Below are positions 10,934 through 24,539 of a stretch of 29,417 nucleotides of DNA, piece after piece (the first letter of the stretch is position 1; every line of letters starts with the position of its first letter). Made by a program: the position numbers and the translations under genes. This DNA comes from a virus, in the IMG/VR virus record IMGVR_UViG_3300043446_004814, positions 1-29,417 of that record; one strand, 5' to 3'. The notes under the pieces are model-generated. The model worked only from the letters and a program-made list of their open reading frames with translations. It was not told the DNA's origin and did not search any database.

Positions 10934-13873
10934 TTAGGAGATTGTCAAAGTGCTGGTGGCTGAATCGTAGCTTCCGGTGCGGCCGGGTGCTCCGGCGAGG
11001 GTGACGCTGGCGTAGGTCTGCGTGGTAGAGCCAGGGAAGAAGCGGAAGGTCATGCCGACCGTGGGCGCGGTGTTGAAGCTCACGCCGAGCGTGGTGGGGC
11101 CGAAGGTGGCGGTGGCGGTGCTGGCTCCGTTGGTTTTGGAAACGGTGATGGCGCCTGCCGAGATCGAGGTCGAGCCGGTGTAGGCGTGGGCGGCGCTGCC
11201 GAGTGCGAGGGTGCCTGCGCCTTGCTTGGTGAGCCCGCCGCCGCCGGTGCCGTCGGCGAGCGTGGCGGCGACTGTGAGCGCGCCAGCGACATTGAAAATG
11301 GCACCGCCGGATTTGACCGAGAGCGTGATCGTGGCGGGGATCGAAAGGGTGTTGAGGCTTTGAAAGGTGCCGCCATTGAAGTTGATCGTGGCGGGCTGGG
11401 CGGTGGTGATGTGGGTGATGCCTGTCGTGGTGAGGGTGCCGCCGTTGAGGTTGATGACGGTGGAGACTCCTGCCGAACTGCCGCGATTGATGAATAGTGA
11501 TCCGGAGTTGATGGTCCCCGTGCCGGAGACGGTTAAAACTCCCGCGCCTGTGCCGCCGCCGCACTCGATGCCGATCGTGGTGATGGTGCCGCCGGAGACA
11601 TTGACAAGGCAATTCGCTCCGGCCAGCCAGGTGCCGCCATTTGTGTTCACGGTGCCGCCGGAGATATTCAGTGTGCCGCTGCCGCCGTTATTGTCGCCGA
11701 GCATCATTCCGCTTCCGAGCGAGACGACTGCCGTGCCGCTGATATTAACCGTGCCTGTGTTGCCTCCGGTGGCTGCTATCTGGAATCCGCGGACACTCCC
11801 GGCGGTGTAGGATTGGGTGAAATTTCCCGAGATATTTAAGACGGGATTTGCCGCGCCGTTGATGGATACGGCGTTGTTGGCGGTGAATGTGCCGGGGATC
11901 GTTAGCTCGCCTGCGGCAACGGTGGTGGCTCCGCCGTAGGCGTTGCCAGATCCGGAGAGGGTGAGCGTGCCGGTGCCGGATTTCACGAGGCCGCCGGTGT
12001 TGGTGGATGCGAGCGAGCCGAAGCTGATTGATTCGCCATTGGAATCGATGCGGATCGCCGATGTGGAGTTTTTGATTTGAGAGGAAATGTCGATGGTGAT
12101 GCCGGTGGCATATTGGAGCGTTCCGCCGGTGAAAACGAGCGTGCTGGTGCCGATGGCGCTGGCATGGCCTAGCTGGAGCGTGCCGCCATTGAGCGTGGTG
12201 GTGCCTGAGTAGGTATTCACCCCAGTGAGGGCGAGCGTGCCGTTGCCTTGCTTGGTGAGGCTGCCGGTGCCGGTGATGAGGTTGGCAAAAGTGATATTGT
12301 CGGCGCGGTTGAAAAGGAGCGTCGCGGCGTTGGCGATCGCGCCGAGGATGCTGCCGTTGATTTGCAGGGTGCCTGCGTTGATCGTGGTGCCGCCGCTGTA
12401 GGTGTTCGCTCCAGAGAGAATGAGGATGCCGCTGCCGGTCTTGGTGAGTGCGCCGGTGCCGGTGATCGCTTGTGGGATCGTGAGGTTGCCCGAGGCGGCG
12501 TTGATCGTGCCGCCCGCATCTTGAATCAAAACGACAAGCTGGGAAATCAGTGCAAATGTCGCGTTGTTTTGAAATGTGCCGCCATTGAAAATGAGCGCGT
12601 GTGAGCCCGCGCTGTATAATGAGCCAGAGCAGATGAGCGTGCCGCCTGCGCTGCCGTTGCCGAGGGTGATCGTGGTGCTGGCGCCCGCGCCACCCTGGCC
12701 GAAAACGATCGAACCGGTGGTCATGGTGCCGGTGCCGTAGATATTGAGGAGGCTAGTGGAGTTTGGCACACCTGCCGTGGAGCCGCCGCCGATGTAGAAA
12801 GTGTTCCCGCCGGTGGTGAGTGAGCCACTGGCGATGTTGGCAACCGAGGTCGGCCCAGCGAACCAGAGTTGGCCGACGGTATTGAGCGAGCCGCCGAGGA
12901 TGTTGAGCGTGGAGGTGCCGACTCCGTTGTCGCCGAGCATCATTCCCGCGCCGAGCGTGGCGGTGCCGTAGACATTCAGAACGGAGTTGTAGTTGAGGGA
13001 CTGAGCGAGCTGGAATGAGCGCACCGAGCTGCCAGGGTTGCTCTGCGCAAATGTGCCGATGAGGTTGGTCGTGCCATTGCGGAGTTGCACCACCACCGAG
13101 GCCGTGCCAGCGAGGCTTTGGGTGCCGGTGCCGGTTTTGAAAAGGGTGTTCGTGCCGGTGATCGCTCCGGAGAAGCTGGCCGTGCCGGAGTTGTCGGCGA
13201 GCTCGAGAAAAAATGTGCCGAGGGCCAGCGTGCCCGCGCCGGAGATATTGAGCACGGCCTCGTTCCCGCCGAGTTGGAAGGTCGCGCCCGCATCGACGAC
13301 CAGCTCCGAGGAGTTGCTGATGCGATCAGCGGTGCTGGTGGTGAGCGTGCCTTCGCGCACGCGGGTCGTGCCGGTGTAGGTATTCGCTCCCGAGAGGGTG
13401 AGCGTGCCCGTGCCGACTTTTAAAAGGCAGAGCGCGCCTTGCGAGGTATTGCCGCGCGCGATCGCGTAGGTGCGCGCGCCGCTGGTGGTATCGAAGCCGA
13501 TGAATGCACCGGCCGCGAAATTTGTCGTGGCAAGCATGGCGGTGATCTCGGCGTCCGTTATCGCATTGTAAACCGCGAGGGCCGCGCCGGAGGCCACGGA
13601 GAAGCGGCCATTGGTGGCATTGCCGGGGAGCGCAGCGAGCGTTTCGATCGTGAGCACGCCATCGCCCACGGTGGTGTTGCCAGTGTAGGTGTTCGCGGTC
13701 GAGAGCCGCAAAATGCCCGCGCCGGTTTTGACTATGTTTATCGCGCCGCTGAGGGCCGAGGTGATCGCGGCCTCGGTGAAGACATAGAATGACCGGATCG
13801 AGGCCGTGGCGCTGGCGATAGCACGCACCACGCTGGTGCCGATCCTCGCTGCGCTGGAGTCCGGTAAAATCAT
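10934..13873 (-). CDS. Putative tailspike/receptor-binding protein made of autotransporter-associated beta-strand repeats
   Basis: The 979-residue protein starts at the ATG at 13873 (ATGA overlap with the upstream adaptor gene); the frame beyond it is spurious. At least six units match the autotransporter-associated beta-strand repeat (G-G-L-L-G-NTY-G-TT---GTL): about residues 48-76, 151-178, 477-505, 538-566, 628-657 and 880-909. A second, longer duplication of about 130 residues links 275-405 and 684-815, each with GMMLGDN. The predicted fold is a long right-handed beta-helix. There is no signal peptide, beta-barrel or PEP-CTERM anchor as in cellular relatives. It closes the fibre cluster and precedes lysis, so I infer a virion spike that contacts the host surface. 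Confidence 0.78.
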   Translation of the reverse strand: MILPDSSAARIGTSVVRAIASATASIRSFYVFTEAAITSALSGAINIVKTGAGILRLSTANTYTGNTTVGDGVLTIETLAALPGNATNGRFSVASGAALAVYNAITDAEITAMLATTNFAAGAFIGFDTTSGARTYAIARGNTSQGALCLLKVGTGTLTLSGANTYTGTTRVREGTLTTSTADRISNSSELVVDAGATFQLGGNEAVLNISGAGTLALGTFFLELADNSGTASFSGAITGTNTLFKTGTGTQSLAGTASVVVQLRNGTTNLIGTFAQSNPGSSVRSFQLAQSLNYNSVLNVYGTATLGAGMMLGDNGVGTSTLNILGGSLNTVGQLWFAGPTSVANIASGSLTTGGNTFYIGGGSTAGVPNSTSLLNIYGTGTMTTGSIVFGQGGAGASTTITLGNGSAGGTLICSGSLYSAGSHALIFNGGTFQNNATFALISQLVVLIQDAGGTINAASGNLTIPQAITGTGALTKTGSGILILSGANTYSGGTTINAGTLQINGSILGAIANAATLLFNRADNITFANLITGTGSLTKQGNGTLALTGVNTYSGTTTLNGGTLQLGHASAIGTSTLVFTGGTLQYATGITIDISSQIKNSTSAIRIDSNGESISFGSLASTNTGGLVKSGTGTLTLSGSGNAYGGATTVAAGELTIPGTFTANNAVSINGAANPVLNISGNFTQSYTAGSVRGFQIAATGGNTGTVNISGTAVVSLGSGMMLGDNNGGSGTLNISGGTVNTNGGTWLAGANCLVNVSGGTITTIGIECGGGTGAGVLTVSGTGTINSGSLFINRGSSAGVSTVINLNGGTLTTTGITHITTAQPATINFNGGTFQSLNTLSIPATITLSVKSGGAIFNVAGALTVAATLADGTGGGGLTKQGAGTLALGSAAHAYTGSTSISAGAITVSKTNGASTATATFGPTTLGVSFNTAPTVGMTFRFFPGSTTQTYASVTLAGAPGRTGSYDSATSTLTIS

Positions 13874-14214
13874 CCGACGATGATGTAGAGAGTAGTCGCC
13901 GATGGCGTGCCGATGGCGTTGTAGCCTGCCTGCGTGATCTGCACGACATTCGAGAGCGCGGTCGCGCCCGTGAGCCCGCTGGTGCTCGAGGCCACGGCTC
14001 CGATCGCGGCGGGCGTAAGGACATCCGCGCCGCCAGCGGCGTGCGTGCTCGCGTGCGGCGAGGAGGCGAGGGAGGGTTTGCTGGTGATATCCTGCCACGA
14101 GACGGCCCGCGCCTGCGCGCCGACGACGACCCAGGCGCTTCCGGTGTAGCGCCAGGTCTTGTCGCCGCTTGTGAAAAGATCGTTGGCGCTCGGGCTGTCG
14201 GGGAAGTCGATCAT
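13870..14214 (-). CDS. Tail fibre adaptor-like protein, 114 aa
   Basis: The first 30 residues, MIDFPDSPSANDLFTSGDKTWRYTG, match the FPDSPS-G--FT--G-TWRYTGSAWV module common at attachment ends of phage fibre and collar proteins. The rest is Ala/Thr/Ser-rich (ASTHAAGGADVLTPAAIGAVASSTS), with a THAAGGAD motif seen in fibre shafts. It is coupled by ATGA to the beta-rich gene upstream and to the large beta-repeat gene downstream. It may link the spike to the tail, or form the N-terminal attachment subunit of that spike. Not an enzyme as far as can be seen. Confidence 0.7.
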   Translation of the reverse strand: MIDFPDSPSANDLFTSGDKTWRYTGSAWVVVGAQARAVSWQDITSKPSLASSPHASTHAAGGADVLTPAAIGAVASSTSGLTGATALSNVVQITQAGYNAIGTPSATTLYIIVG

Positions 14215-15317
14215 GGTGTCGAGAGGGCGGCTGCAAGTTGCTCGCCCACGATCTCAGCAGTGGCGCAATTTTTTACCCGCTCGCCGATCGATCCGGAGGT
14301 GGTGAGCGAGCTGGTGAGTGCGTCCCACACGGCTGAGGCCACGGCCGCGCCGGTGAGGAGTGCCGTGCCGGTGGTGCTTCCGACGGGAACGCCGAGGGCC
14401 ACTGATCCGGCGGCTGGGACTGCACAAGTGCCGACCATGCCGCCGCCGTAGCTGATGCCGCTGCGGACATCGGTTGTCGCTGGGCCAAGGCCGGTGTTGT
14501 CAGCGGTGAACATATCGACATAAGTTCCCGCGCCAGAAAGCGCGTAGCGGGTTTTTGCGGCGAGGGGCGTAGTGTCCAGCGTGAACTTTTGAGCGTAGAT
14601 TGGAACAATACCAGTTGATGAGTGAATGAATGAGCCGCTGAGCCGGTTGGTCGCGCCTGCATTGGATGAGGTGAAGGCAGGCACTGCCCCGGCGGTGATC
14701 GTTCCGAGGATTGTGACGGTTCCGGTGGAGGCATTATTGACTCCTGCCGCTGCGCTTCCGGAGGTGACATTGCCAGAAATTGTTACTGCTCCAGTGGAGT
14801 TGTTGTTTACTCCAAAATTCCCCGATCCAGACCCGCCAGTAATAGTGCCAGAAACGGTGATATTTATGCTTCCAGTTCCACTATTTTGCACGCCTTGGTT
14901 GCCGGCATTTGACACACTGTTTGAGATATTTACGCTAGTCAATGTCAATGCGCCTGTTGAAGAGTTGTTTACCACAATAATCGACCCCGCGCCTCCCAAA
15001 TTCGAAACATTTCCAACAATGGCTGCGGAATTTGCACCGGTAAGAGACACGCAGGAACCACCTGCCCCGCCTATTACATTTGCGGTAAGCGTGACGCCGT
15101 TGGATAAAACAAACCCACCGCCTGATGCACCCCCGTAAATTGTGCCGTTGGTCACATTGTCGCAAGTTGCGTTTGCGGTGATTGTGACCGTGCGGTTGTT
15201 GGCAATAGCATTGTCGCCAGCGATGGGCACGGATGCGCCGGGGGAACCGGCGGCGGTCGTTGACCATGTGGCGGTGTCGTTAAAGTTGCCAGAGGCAACG
15301 GCGAAGCGATTTGCCAT
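14211..15317 (-). CDS. Beta-rich tail fibre or decoration protein, 368 aa
   Basis: The N-terminus MANRFAVASGNFNDTATWSTTAAG resembles a module frequent in phage structural proteins. Residues about 50-210 consist of short Gly/Asn/Ser/Thr-rich repeats (SNGVTLTANVIGG, NNSSTGALTLTSVNIS, NSGTGSINITVSG, NNSTGAVTISG, NNASTGTVTILG), the pattern of a right-handed beta-helix with about 20-residue turns. The C-terminal third (about 240-368) is a different, Ala/Gly-rich domain (YALSGAGTYVDMFTADNTGLG, ...GAAVASAVWDALTSS). The DNA of the repeat part is more AT-rich than its neighbours. It is likely part of the host-recognition cluster. Confidence 0.7.
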   Translation of the reverse strand: MANRFAVASGNFNDTATWSTTAAGSPGASVPIAGDNAIANNRTVTITANATCDNVTNGTIYGGASGGGFVLSNGVTLTANVIGGAGGSCVSLTGANSAAIVGNVSNLGGAGSIIVVNNSSTGALTLTSVNISNSVSNAGNQGVQNSGTGSINITVSGTITGGSGSGNFGVNNNSTGAVTISGNVTSGSAAAGVNNASTGTVTILGTITAGAVPAFTSSNAGATNRLSGSFIHSSTGIVPIYAQKFTLDTTPLAAKTRYALSGAGTYVDMFTADNTGLGPATTDVRSGISYGGGMVGTCAVPAAGSVALGVPVGSTTGTALLTGAAVASAVWDALTSSLTTSGSIGERVKNCATAEIVGEQLAAALSTP

Positions 15318-19907: not shown

Positions 19908-20580
19908 ATGAAAAAATCCACTCGGTCCAATACCCGTAGTTCGTGGATGAGAAGTTTAGGATCAGGGAGTTGTCGTCAAAGAGTGTGGGGTCCTCATAGG
20001 CCGAAAAGGGATAGCCTGGCGTTAGAAGTCGCGTGGACTTCTGCGGCACCGTCGGGAATGTGAATACAATGTTCTTGTAGGTGGCTCCACCGATTGAGCC
20101 TCCTCCGCTTTGGGAAAATCCGGTGGATTGCTCGTTTTCGGTAAAAGCGGAAATGGGGTCAAAATAACTTTCTGGGATTTGGCCAAAAACAAAATTAGGA
20201 AAAGTTTGGCTCACCACTCTTACAATTACGCTGCCTCGGACCATGGCGCCCCACGAGAGTTGGCACTGCTTTACTTTTCGCTCGATGGTCGCGGTCGATT
20301 TCGCCCGCCCGTAGGCGCTGACGATGAACTCGGTGAATCCATCTTCGCGGCGGCGCTCCTGCGCTTCGGGGAAAATCTTGAGGCCGTCGATGCAGGGGGA
20401 GCTGTCGCCGTCGGGCATGTTGTTGCCGACCGCGAGGGTGGCGCGGTGGGTGGCGGCTTGGCTGGTGAGGCCGAGGTAGGTCTGATCCACGCGCACGAGG
20501 CCGGAGGGGAAGGTATTCACGGCGCGGCCGGGCTGGGCGATCAGGGCGGTGGGGTTCGAGGTGAAGATCGTGTAGCTCAT
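19900..20580 (-). CDS. Distal tail protein candidate, 226 aa
   Basis: The gene is directly downstream of the tape measure gene (TAATG coupling at 20580), where siphophages usually encode the distal tail (Dit) or baseplate hub protein. The protein starts MSYTIFTSNPTALIAQPGRA and is strand-rich (GLVRVDQTYLGLTSQAA, FTEFIVSAYGRAKSTATIERKV, GSVIVRVVSQTFPNFVFG), consistent with a beta-sandwich ring protein, but I recognise no Dit signature. The 3' part of the gene is more AT-rich than its surroundings. Function is inferred only from synteny. Confidence 0.5.
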   Translation of the reverse strand: MSYTIFTSNPTALIAQPGRAVNTFPSGLVRVDQTYLGLTSQAATHRATLAVGNNMPDGDSSPCIDGLKIFPEAQERRREDGFTEFIVSAYGRAKSTATIERKVKQCQLSWGAMVRGSVIVRVVSQTFPNFVFGQIPESYFDPISAFTENEQSTGFSQSGGGSIGGATYKNIVFTFPTVPQKSTRLLTPGYPFSAYEDPTLFDDNSLILNFSSTNYGYWTEWIFSYG

Positions 20581-23054
20581 TAGGCGGTGAGTGCGGCGAC
20601 GGGCAGGCGGGGTTCGATTTTTTCGACGAGCTTGAGGATTTGATCCACGATGCCTTCGAGGCCCTTCTTGCCGCCGGTGTCGCCACGAGTCGGGGGCTTT
20701 TGGCCGTCTTGACCGGGCTTATCGACTTTGGCGCGGCGGGCGGCGAGTTCGTCTTTCAGGGAGCCTTTGGCTTTGAACTCCTCAAGCGCGGATTTCTTCT
20801 CGGGTTTGCTGAAATCTTTGTAGACGCCATCCTCGCGGGCGGCGCGGATGCGCTCGCGGAAGCCGCTGGAGCTTTCTCCCAGGCCGCGACTCAGGCCGTA
20901 GTCCTTCCCAATGTCCGCCATGTTGCGCCGGTCGCGGTTTTCGCCGACCCCGGTGAGAGCGGCTTGGGCTTCGTTCTCGGCGATCTTACTGGCCGTGCGG
21001 CGCGCTCCGGAGAAGTCGCCACGGGCGATCTGGTCCTGGGCTTTTTTCTGGAGCTTTCCGCCTTGGTCCACGGCATCTTTGGCCTCGGCGTCGGCGATGT
21101 CTTTTAGAATCTGCTGTGAAATGGCGAGTTCCTTGTTGATGCCTGCCTGCTCTTGGCGGGCGCGGGCGATCTGGTCGGCGAATGCCTCGGCCTCGGATTT
21201 GCCCATACCGGCATCGATGGCTTGCTTGAGTGCGGCGTTGTAGTCTCTCTTATAGTTGAGGGCTTTGACCTCTTCGTCATTGCCGCTGATCTGGGCTTTG
21301 AGGATGGCCAGGTCGAGTTCGAGGTTTTCGCGGAGACCGGCTTGGCGCTCGGCTTGTTTTGCGGCGGCTTCTTTTTCTTTTTCGGCACGCTTGGTCTCGG
21401 TATCGAGCAGGAGTTTTTTTAGCTCCGAGGTTGTCTCTAGTTGTTCATTCTGGCCGCCGATGCTTTGGCTTTGTTCCTCGACCTTTCCGGTAATCGAGTC
21501 GGTGAGGGAGAAATTGCCCTCGAGAAGCGGCTTGGTGCCTGAGATCTTGGAGTTGAGGTCGGACCAGCCAGAAGTAATGCCGTCCACCGTCGGCTTGAAA
21601 TCCGAGTTGATGGTAAACGCGCTGGCGATGCTGTTGCCTGTATCTTCGGCTTTTGAGGCGAGGCCGGAAAATTCCCCGCTTGCGGCGGCGGCTTCGAGGC
21701 TTGCTTTGGTAAGTTTGCCGGATGCATCTTGAGCCGAGTCGCCGAGTTTCCCGAGGTTTTGCTCGGCGGCGGAGGAATTGGCGGCTGCTTGATCGATTTG
21801 CGGCGCGGCGGCTGCGGCGGCATCCCCTACTTTTTGCACTCCTTCTGCGGCGGCTTTTTGCCCGGCTCCAGCTTCAGTGCCTTTATCCCGCAGAAGCATC
21901 ATCAAATCATCCATAGGCGAGATGAATTTGACCGCTTCGTTCATCCAATAATTGAAGCCATTTAGAGACTCTGCGACGGCGTTTACTGATCTGCCAGCAA
22001 CCGTGGTGTTGTCCGGCGTGGAAGAAAGAAAAGCTAAGAACTCTTTTCCGTATTTGATCGCGCCTTGCATGGCCGGGATCAGGTCGTTGTTGAGCGTGGA
22101 GACAACCTCTAGCGTGGGTTTTTGCAGCCCATCGCCAATCGAGGTTTTGAGTTCAGCGTAGGTAGCGGAAAGGATTTTGAGCTGATTGGAAACAGACCCA
22201 GAGGTGTTCGCAAAATCCCCCTGTGCAATTCCGCTTTGTCCGAGAATGGCGTTGTAGGCGGCAAGGGCCTTTGCCTGGGAGTCGATAGCTCCTTTGCCGT
22301 CATAGAGGCCGAGCTTCATTGCCTCGGCTTTCAATGTGGCATCATCTAGCAGGATGCCATATTTGCGGATCGGCTCAGACTCTCCGCGAAGCGCCGCGCC
22401 GATGGCTTGGATAGCCTCCTCTGGCGAGGTGTTGTAGAAGCTGGCAAAATCCGTGGCGAGTTGGACAAGGTTCCTCGAGAAGCCTACAAGCTCGCCGCCT
22501 GCCAATCCTGCGGACTTCCCAAAGACCGCGAAAGTCGAAGCGGCATCCAGAGCCTGCTGGCGGGTCATGCCGAGTTCTTGCACGGCCGTCGCGGCAAAAT
22601 CGGCGACGGCACCGGCGGCAGAGCCGAAGACGACATTCACCTTGTTCATCGTCTCGGCGAGGTCGGAGGATTTTTTGATAGAATCCCCGATGAACATAAA
22701 CGCTTCTTGGAAGCCCATGATCGCGGCGTAGGCCCCCGAGATCGCGCCGGTCAATTTGCCGAAGCTGATGCCGCCTGCATTCACGGAATCATTGGCACGG
22801 TCGAGCTGGCGGATCTCGCTTTCAAGCCGGTTCACCTGAGCGGCAGACTCAGCGGAGTTGTCCCCCATGGCCTTAATTCGCTTTTCCATCGACTCCACCT
22901 GGCCGATCCGGCGCATGGTTTTCTCAAGCTCCTCCATGGAAAGCTCGCCGCTTTTGACCGACGAGCGAAGTCCGGCCATCTCGTCTTGAATTTTCGAGAG
23001 CGTCTTTTGCAGGCCGACATCCTGCGCGCCGAATTCTACTGTGACATCAGCCAT
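20580..23054 (-). CDS. Tail tape measure protein
   Basis: The 824-residue protein starts MADVTVEFGAQDVGLQKTLS, then a coiled-coil region (EKRIKAMGDNSAESAAQVNRLESEIRQL). The conserved TMP core (about 85-330) includes MNKVNVVFGSAAGAV, ELGMTRQQALDAASTFAVFGKSAGLAG, ALRGESEPIRKYGILLDD and AILGQSGIAQGDFANTSGSVSNQLK. Long helical, Ala/Glu/Lys-rich parts (about 540-760) and a charged Pro/Gly C-terminus follow. It sets the tail length; at about 0.15 nm per residue the tail would be near 120 nm. It is short for a TMP and carries no clear lytic domain. It lies between the chaperone genes and the distal tail genes, as in lambda-like tails. Confidence 0.93.
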   Translation of the reverse strand: MADVTVEFGAQDVGLQKTLSKIQDEMAGLRSSVKSGELSMEELEKTMRRIGQVESMEKRIKAMGDNSAESAAQVNRLESEIRQLDRANDSVNAGGISFGKLTGAISGAYAAIMGFQEAFMFIGDSIKKSSDLAETMNKVNVVFGSAAGAVADFAATAVQELGMTRQQALDAASTFAVFGKSAGLAGGELVGFSRNLVQLATDFASFYNTSPEEAIQAIGAALRGESEPIRKYGILLDDATLKAEAMKLGLYDGKGAIDSQAKALAAYNAILGQSGIAQGDFANTSGSVSNQLKILSATYAELKTSIGDGLQKPTLEVVSTLNNDLIPAMQGAIKYGKEFLAFLSSTPDNTTVAGRSVNAVAESLNGFNYWMNEAVKFISPMDDLMMLLRDKGTEAGAGQKAAAEGVQKVGDAAAAAAPQIDQAAANSSAAEQNLGKLGDSAQDASGKLTKASLEAAAASGEFSGLASKAEDTGNSIASAFTINSDFKPTVDGITSGWSDLNSKISGTKPLLEGNFSLTDSITGKVEEQSQSIGGQNEQLETTSELKKLLLDTETKRAEKEKEAAAKQAERQAGLRENLELDLAILKAQISGNDEEVKALNYKRDYNAALKQAIDAGMGKSEAEAFADQIARARQEQAGINKELAISQQILKDIADAEAKDAVDQGGKLQKKAQDQIARGDFSGARRTASKIAENEAQAALTGVGENRDRRNMADIGKDYGLSRGLGESSSGFRERIRAAREDGVYKDFSKPEKKSALEEFKAKGSLKDELAARRAKVDKPGQDGQKPPTRGDTGGKKGLEGIVDQILKLVEKIEPRLPVAALTA

Positions 23055-23058
23055 GGCG

Positions 23059-23907
23059 TTACGCGGCCTCCTGGAGTTTGGGTTGGCGGTGTTTAAGGAT
23101 GCGCTCCATTTGCTTTTTCATTTTGCCACCCACGATCGAGAGCGCTTGGAGCTTTTCGGTTTCGCGCAAAACCTTGTCGGCATATTTGCAGGTGTTCGTG
23201 AGGATGACGGTGGGGGCTGAAGTGTTAGTGGTGTTGTCTTGGACTTCACCTAATCCATAGTCTCCGAGGTGGCGTGTGACCCACTTGGGAATGTCTCGAG
23301 TCATTGATCCAGAGCCGACTTTTTTGAGCTTTGTGGCGCACCAGGCCCACCCCGATTTTGCAATACCAACCTTGGCGTATTGAGCCGCAACAAATGCTTC
23401 CAAGGCTGGCTTTGGGACAAAGTATTTATTAATGAATTTCCAGCGTCCGATATTGTGAGTGTCACCCCCGGCGGCACTCATTTTACCATTCACAAAATTT
23501 GCTCGGTGAATTGACGCAATATCTGAAGTTGATGCATCGGGCAGAAAGTGAGCGCGATCTATGCCGTAGATGTCGCCTTTTTTTGTTGCGTGCACGGTAA
23601 TATAGTCGCTGCTGCTGAAATTGTCTGCGTAAGCTATCTGTCGCGGCGTGACATGAGCAAACAGACCGGCGCGGCCCTTGCCTTTAGCACTGCTTCGGCG
23701 ACCGCCATAGATGTCTTTTGCAATGGCTTTTTCGCTTATCTTTTCTTCGCCAGTTTTATTTCCAAACGGCTGAGTCCGGCGGGCAAGTTCGACACACAGA
23801 ATCCGAGCGCTCATGTGGACGGCGTCGGGGATCGTGGTCTCAAGGATCTCGGCGTAGTCCTTCATGATCTGCTCGAATTTCAGATTGGTGAGTTTGAATT
23901 TTGGCAT
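23059..23907 (-). CDS. Hypothetical protein between tail chaperones and tape measure, 282 aa
   Basis: The N-terminal about 80 residues (FKLTNLKFEQIMKDYAEILE, TTIPDAVHMSARILCVELARRT) resemble HK97 gp10-like or minor tail proteins (helix, then IPDAV--SAR-LCVEL---T). The rest is basic and unremarkable (RRSSAKGKGRAGLFAHVTPRQIAYA, GRWKFINKYFVPKPALEAFVAAQYAKVG). The DNA is distinctly more AT-rich than the genes on both sides, which suggests separate acquisition. A role in tail assembly fits the position but is not shown. Four bases separate it from the tape measure gene. Confidence 0.6.
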   Translation of the reverse strand: MPKFKLTNLKFEQIMKDYAEILETTIPDAVHMSARILCVELARRTQPFGNKTGEEKISEKAIAKDIYGGRRSSAKGKGRAGLFAHVTPRQIAYADNFSSSDYITVHATKKGDIYGIDRAHFLPDASTSDIASIHRANFVNGKMSAAGGDTHNIGRWKFINKYFVPKPALEAFVAAQYAKVGIAKSGWAWCATKLKKVGSGSMTRDIPKWVTRHLGDYGLGEVQDNTTNTSAPTVILTNTCKYADKVLRETEKLQALSIVGGKMKKQMERILKHRQPKLQEAA

Positions 23908-23913
23908 CGCGGA

Positions 23914-24539
23914 TCAGAGTTTTTGAAAGACGCTTTCTATCGCTTGTAGGGAGTCAAAAACCGTTGCCGGATCATCGCGCAGGTAAACGCGAGGTATGCC
24001 GCGAGCGAATGAATCGGCGTCCAAAATTTGGAGACCGGCCGCGTAGGGGATCTCCCACATGCACTCGTGGAAGCCCCAACCGGTGACACTGGCGAGTCTG
24101 TAAACATACGAGGCGAGCCAGTTGGGGCTTGCTACTTTCCCCCGCTCGAGCCGGTGGGCGCGGAGGCGTGCTGCGCGCGGGTTTCGGATGCGTTCACTTT
24201 GTCCCACGCGGCGGAGACCAGGCGGGAGAGTTCGTTCTGTTCCTCGAGGTCGGAGATGTTTTCGATCTGCCATTTGCGAACCGCCTTGTTGAAGGCGACG
24301 GGATCGGAATCCACGGCGAGGACATCCTCGAGCGGTGCGGTGTGGACAAAGGCAAATGCGGCGACGAACCAGAACTCATCGCGCTTCTCGAGCATATTGG
24401 ATCTGATGATGCTGATCGTGCCGGGCACGCAGGGGCGGAGCTTGAATTTTCCGGAGGTGCGCGTGCCTTCGCGCATTCCCGCTTCGCGCAGGGCTTCGTC
24501 GTCGGTTTCGATGTCTTGGGTTTCTTTCGTTTTTTTCAT
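23914..24539 (-). CDS. Tail assembly chaperone, -1 frameshift fusion product (gpGT-like)
   Basis: Ribosomes that slip back one base at GGGAAAG (24141-24135) leave the first frame at its last Lys codon and continue KVASPNWLASYVYRLASVTG in the second frame to the stop at 23914. The product has 208 residues: 135 from the first frame and 73 from the second. The second-frame part (TGWGFHECMWEIPYAAGLQI, then DADSFARG) is a coherent helical domain with conserved-looking aromatic residues and has no start codon or Shine-Dalgarno of its own after the overlap. In lambda the gpG/gpGT pair chaperones the tape measure before tail tube polymerisation; the same place upstream of the tape measure supports this. 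Confidence 0.85.
24071..24141 (-). promoter_or_regulatory. Programmed -1 frameshift signal: GGGAAAG plus 13-bp downstream stem
   Basis: On the minus strand the heptamer G GGA AAG (24141-24135) is in frame and is followed at once by the TAG stop of the first product. Four bases later begins a stem of 13 pairs with one G-U (24130-24118 with 24083-24071: AAGCCCCAACTGG with CCGGTTGGGGCTT) closing a 34-nt loop. GGGAAAG is the slippery sequence of the lambda G/GT pair. The reading frames on both sides agree with a -1 shift. Confidence 0.88.
24132..24539 (-). CDS. Tail assembly chaperone, unshifted product (gpG-like)
   Basis: The unshifted frame encodes 135 residues, from MKKTKETQDIETDDEALREA to the stop directly after the slippery site. 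The N-terminus is charged and likely flexible; the middle (FKLRPCVPGTISIIRSNMLEKRDEFWFVAAFAFVHTAPLEDVLAV) is the folded part, followed by a helix (FNKAVRKWQIENISDLEEQNELSRLV) and a Ser/Gly-rich end at the shift point. Position between the tail tube gene region and the tape measure fits the major chaperone. The ATG is preceded by AACCAACCCAACGACAAACC, again a CA-rich leader without Shine-Dalgarno. Confidence 0.82.
   Translation of the reverse strand: MKKTKETQDIETDDEALREAGMREGTRTSGKFKLRPCVPGTISIIRSNMLEKRDEFWFVAAFAFVHTAPLEDVLAVDSDPVAFNKAVRKWQIENISDLEEQNELSRLVSAAWDKVNASETRAQHASAPTGSSGGK

Follow-up and report, generated by a model that had tools for sequence, protein, structure and literature searches.

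The window, the whole stretch of DNA analyzed here, is a 29.4-kb virus record, and the region studied lies on its minus strand, with the following features.

24132..24539, minus strand: ORF1, a putative gpG-like chaperone frame of 135 aa; this is the zero frame and ends with TAG at 24134-24132
24135..24141, minus strand: candidate slippery heptamer G_GGA_AAG, in the phase of ORF1
24132..24134, minus strand: zero-frame stop TAG, directly behind the heptamer
24118..24130, minus strand: stem 5′ arm, 13 nt, with a conserved core of 11 nt at 24128-24118
24071..24083, minus strand: stem 3′ arm, 13 nt, with a conserved core of 11 nt at 24083-24073
23914..24135, minus strand: −1 continuation (frame 2), a putative gpT-like domain of 73 codons (VASPNW...QKL) followed by a stop
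23059..23907, minus strand: 282-aa gene between the chaperone and tape measure genes, without a family match
20580..23054, minus strand: tail tape measure gene, 824 aa (phrog_7025, E 4e-25)

Read 5′ to 3′, the minus strand codes for a lambda-family portal piece, a ClpP-like head protease, and a weak major-head match, followed by several genes without an assigned family, ORF1 with frame 2, the 282-aa gene, and the tape measure protein. This is the usual siphophage head-to-tail gene order, and the ORF1/frame 2 pair sits where lambda has G/GT. A tape measure homologue is present downstream of the junction in 80 of the 81 testable loci, and the pair has the position relative to the tape measure gene that is expected of tail chaperones, with one gene, of 282 aa, intervening in the window; this position is judged relative to the tape measure gene. 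The intervening gene is no obstacle to the placement, since HK97 similarly has gp15 between its chaperone and tape measure genes, and two of the relatives (L221 and L227) lack the 282-aa gene altogether. Where present, it varies among the relatives, with about 21 to 51% identity in the loci compared.

Two Verrucomicrobia MAGs carry ORF1 homologues, one close (L140, 98%) and the other distant (L141, 33%), and the host is therefore probably a member of this phylum. A separate feature of the window is a gene at 10934-14236 (minus strand) whose 1100-aa product contains passenger-associated-transport repeats (PF12951, E 8.7e-44, in six stretches), is unusual for a phage, and is perhaps a host-attachment protein.

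ORF1 ends ...ACC GGC TCG AGC GGG GGA AAG TAG, bearing out the original prediction that its last codons are GGG GGA AAG TAG, which named no strand; the reading is on the minus strand. The heptamer GGGAAAG proposed there as the slippery site is present at 24141-24135 in phase with ORF1, and a −1 slip on it enters, as foreseen, a second open frame, of 73 codons, that runs to the stop at 23914. Across the junction the −1 frame translates as VASPNWLASYVYR..., and the codons after the slip, GTA GCA AGC CCC AAC TGG..., give VASPNWLASYVYRLASVTGWGFHECMWEIPYAAGLQILDADSF..., open to 23914. The stop codon expected between the slip site and the stem is there as well, in the form of TAG. As a bare 7-mer GGGAAAG occurs 3 times in the window versus 5.4 times expected, so it is not rare, and the weight of the frameshift prediction lies not on the 7-mer but on its phase, its position, and the order of heptamer, stop, and stem, which recurs in 87/87 junctions.

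These junctions derive from a scan of IMG/VR with profiles of ORF1 and frame 2, to which the window and two Verrucomicrobia MAG loci were added; in total there are 87 distinct ones, from virus and prophage sequences, with identity down to about 50% in frame 2, and there are 48 ORF1 homologues from IMG/VR in addition to L140 and L141. In every one of the 87, the slippery heptamer is in phase, the next zero-frame codon is a stop, and the −1 frame continues. The arrangement is gap-free throughout (87/87), as is the alignment of the 75-nt segments, of which 67 are distinct. The heptamers and stops are combined as GGGAAAG-TAG (27/87 junctions), GGGAAAC-TAA (27/87), GGGGGAG-TAG (17/87), AAAAAAC-TAG (5/87), CCCAAAC-TAA (5/87), GGGAAAC-TGA (4/87), and GGGAAAC-TAG (2/87). 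The conserved GGGAAAG on which the original prediction had staked itself is thus present literally in 27/87 junctions, with the rest carrying other slippery heptamers; in the upstream phase the X_XXY_YYZ heptamer is canonical in 70/87 and the non-canonical G_GGG_GAG in 17/87. The zero-frame residues at the slip vary (GK, GN, GE, KN, and PN) while the slip pattern persists, indicating that it is the nucleotides and not the peptide that are conserved. On the protein tree there are at least four heptamer changes and at least four stop changes, each retaining a slippery heptamer and a stop; the 87 junctions share descent and are not independent, and it is just these four heptamer and four stop changes that are separate events on the tree.

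Runs of 5 to 6 G in the window and in L005, and of 6 A in the AAAAAAC class, are the kind of sequence on which RNA polymerase, rather than the ribosome, could slip to change the frame. However, many relatives hold only GGG AAA or CCC AAA, and runs of this kind are too short for polymerase slippage. Moreover, the relatives keep the XXXYYYZ pattern of ribosomal slippage, properly phased and followed after 6 nt by a conserved stem, and a transcriptional origin of the frame change is extremely improbable.

The non-canonical heptamer marks a subclade of 17 junctions (L012 to L047; for example, L012:2408-2414) that read TCG GGG GAG TAG, such that G_GGG_GAG TAG replaces G_GGA_AAG TAG. Here the Gly tRNA could re-pair perfectly, but the Glu tRNA in the A site would require a middle-position G-U pair on GGA, which counts against a G/GT-type ribosomal frameshift. 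The heptamer GGGGGAA follows the same re-pairing logic and is common in the tail chaperones of SEA-PHAGES (PMC10885494), and a shift on GGGGGAA has been proposed for corynephage phi16 (PMC5506516). The GGGGGAG subclade is similar to this type in its five-two pattern with G-U re-pairing, although its last base is G instead of A, its stop is immediately behind, and it sits beside canonical heptamers within one homologous family. A further possible precedent (PMC3091744) was rejected, as the GGGGGAA described there is a ribosome-binding site.

Frame 2 has codon-position differences in the near clade of 7504/4672/15826, and this third-position excess indicates that the −1 frame is coding. Its sequence is conserved to about 50% identity, with the conserved block starting right at the junction (VASPNW or LNSPGW). 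The claim that frame 2 has no start of its own at a sensible place holds for the relatives: 46/87 junctions have no ATG, GTG, or TTG in the upstream open stretch and 64/87 have no ATG, only 3/87 have a start codon within 60 nt before the junction, and in 23/87 the upstream open stretch spans just 3 to 21 codons. It does not hold for the window itself, where the −1 frame is open through the 80 codons ahead of the junction and includes potential starts at distances of 72 nt (GTG) and 138 nt (ATG). These window starts, and the slight resemblance of the slip-site purines to a Shine-Dalgarno sequence, would suit a frame 2 that is a separate gene expressed by termination-reinitiation or from its own start, with the overlap with ORF1 being incidental. 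Such a gene is highly improbable, however, given the many junctions with no in-frame start and a conserved block that begins at the junction, and it would leave the conserved class of heptamers unexplained; relatives with separate, self-started genes were looked for, and none were found. Readthrough of the stop was also considered, with the zero frame remaining open for about 64 further codons in 66/87 junctions, and was rejected because synonymous recoding leaves this frame open as often (mean P 0.42).

Downstream of the junction the window contains the stem as originally described, 13 bp with one G-U pair and a 34-nt loop, separated from the heptamer by a 4-nt spacer; the single-strand MFE is −27.6 kcal/mol (z −3.3 versus dinucleotide shuffles). 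Not all of this stem belongs to the family: the relatives share an 11-bp core starting 6 nt after the heptamer, a suitably spaced structure, but conservation does not extend to the two outermost A-U pairs, which are unpaired in 36/67 and 30/67 of the relatives' segments. RNAalifold predicts the identical helix when given no hint, and across the 67 distinct rows 89% of the cells of the 13-bp stem are paired, compared with 84% in shuffled and 24 to 57% in slid alignments. The compensatory changes that had been suggested as a check are present, with 49 two-sided changes observed versus 23 in shuffled data (67 rows). Pair 14/69 swaps between GC and CG by way of Ser AGC/TCC and Gly GGC/GGG codons, and its columns change together on the same branches 7 times (with 9 and 11 changes over 168 branches; p 2e-8), a stronger association than for any other column tested, with long branches raising the background. 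Pair 15/68 shows a change from CG to GC, and pair 20/63 is AU or GC in 55/67 rows and broken in 12/67; by parsimony the changes in 20/63 are not on shared branches, and it is weaker evidence.

Some of the stem is forced by Trp and Gly codons. In a synonymous recoding test, 10.6 of the 11 core pairs are kept compared with 8.3 expected, and the mean MFE is −26.9 versus −19.7, with a per-sequence median p of only about 0.04. Pro codon 4 is CCC in 87/87 junctions, whereas Pro codon 30 uses four codons. A conserved pseudoknot, for which a search had been suggested, was rejected as a family feature, with the best 6-bp helix between the loop and downstream sequence complete in at most 42% of the sequences; the search does give a candidate in the window, a 9-bp loop-downstream complementarity (CTCGTATGT / GCATGTGGG, within 24112-24054, minus strand) that is absent in the relatives. 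An upstream Shine-Dalgarno stimulator was likewise rejected, with no consistent match among the relatives, and an Rfam search returned no match.

At the stop codon adjoining the slip site, the first new codon is GTA in all 44 of the 44 Val cases, compared with 7/282 Val codons elsewhere in frame 2; where it encodes Leu, it is CTA or CTG with A or G as the next base, so that a stop always results. The zero-frame stop lies 5 codons after the heptamer in lambda and 8 codons after it in TP901-1, and the conserved adjacent stop is seen in neither of these, the only two known phages in the comparison; HK97 was left out because its slip site is other than GGGAAAG. The fixed slip-stop-stem layout, together with the G_GGG_GAG subclade, sets the family apart from lambda and TP901-1.

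A comparable order of slip site, adjacent stop, and stimulatory hairpin is found in the polymerase frameshifts of BYDV, RCNMV, and PEMV, although these are plant RNA viruses with unrelated genes, eukaryotic ribosomes, and long-range RNA contacts, and the parallel is one of layout only. In luteo-, diantho-, and umbraviruses the stop is at the slip site or 3 nt after it, at the hairpin base; in PEMV other stops also work, and a sense codon lowers shifting by 72%, while in BYDV the results from reporters and full-length RNA differ (PMC4737148). We tentatively propose that the adjoining stop here could be a working part of the signal, with slow release-factor entry or ribosome stacking raising −1 slippage, a mechanism already proposed for luteo- and umbraviruses, and that slip site, stop, and stem may have been kept as a unit in these probably Verrucomicrobia phages while heptamers and stops swapped. 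A short protein that merely ends at the adjoining stop is a simpler reading than a stimulatory role.

The frameshift might also be real with neither stem nor stop contributing to it, the stem then reflecting protein and codon constraints and the adjacent stop serving to keep ORF1 short. The G-C pairs forced by Trp and Gly codons, the 8.3/11 pairs retained by recoding alone, and the more distant stops of lambda and TP901-1 are all compatible with this. It is nonetheless unlikely: the Ser and Gly codon swaps coincide in a way that preserves the pair, Pro is invariably CCC, GTA is the sole Val codon at the junction and scarce elsewhere, and three different stop codons occupy one place.

Neither protein has a match in Pfam or PHROGs, tblastn over 50,697 phage records gives no match, and hhalign with lambda G and T stays below 1% probability. 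The AlphaFold2 model of ORF1 is all-helical (mean pLDDT 68) and has no PDB match at E≤0.001, and that of frame 2 (pLDDT 56) is too poor for a structure search. As there is no similarity to annotated tail chaperones, assignment of function rests on position and layout, and the best-supported description of the pair is G/GT-like by layout, position, and recoding signal, with homology not implied.

In lambda, the roles of gpG and gpGT and the G_GGA_AAG shift site are established, and both products are needed in ratio (PMC5009743). Slip-site and fusion mutants of Lactococcus phage TP901-1 show that it too needs both products in ratio (PMC4493119), and shift rates of 6% and 7% have been measured for two genes from a phage tail-chaperone cluster (PMC3711429). 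The system described here shares with lambda the identical heptamer, the −1 direction, a slip site close to where the first frame ends, Val as the first new residue, a small first protein with a C-terminal extension, and a location before the tape measure gene. It differs in the immediate stop, in the extra gene before the tape measure gene, and in that neither protein has detectable sequence similarity to its lambda counterpart. The label lambda-type used in the original prediction is thus apt for layout and mechanism but does not extend to sequence homology with G or T. TP901-1 gpG/gpGT has the GGGAAAG slip site and the same gene order, but its stop is more distant and the structure downstream of its slip site is weak (−7.5 kcal/mol over 68 nt).

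With high confidence, therefore, though from sequence comparisons, ORF1 and its −1 continuation are predicted to be a tail assembly chaperone pair of the lambda G/GT design with a programmed −1 frameshift; that this is a −1 frameshift in tail-chaperone genes, as first claimed, is supported by the 87/87 junctions, the covarying stem, the missing frame 2 starts, and the tape measure synteny. It is very probable that a −1 ribosomal slip gives this phage a second, longer version of a protein that helps to build the tail, and this familiar device looks to be unusually tightly built in this family, with slip site, stop, and hairpin together. Slippage and its rate, a stimulatory effect of stem and adjoining stop, and the function of each protein are inferred from this anatomy, as follows. 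Most ribosomes would terminate at the TAG of ORF1, yielding the short protein, and a minority would slip one base back when the hairpin downstream arrives at their mRNA entry channel, with the tRNAs on GGA and AAG moving to GGG and AAA. The slipped ribosomes would bypass the TAG, and their product would gain a C-terminal domain of 73 residues. Coating of the tape measure is the predicted role of the short form, and recruitment of the tail tube protein that of the rare fusion.

This would widen the range of G/GT recoding to a family of phages with proteins that are recognized by no library used, the chaperones being identifiable from layout alone. As a natural experiment, the family offers five slip heptamers (one of them non-canonical), three stops, and a covarying hairpin around one fixed frame, and exchanging these natural variants would directly test what heptamer, adjacent stop, and stem each contribute.

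Eight far more distant Verrucomicrobia loci code for similar frame 2 domains and have no immediate stop. In four of them (L263, L264, L268, and L270) the zero-frame stop comes 1 to 6 codons later, and the other four have no zero-frame stop in the stretch examined. In L263, L264, L265-L268, and L270 the gpT-like frames are near CCCAAAC, GGGAAAC, or an A run, with the stop not adjacent, and these distant loci are probably further chaperone families with −1 shifts.
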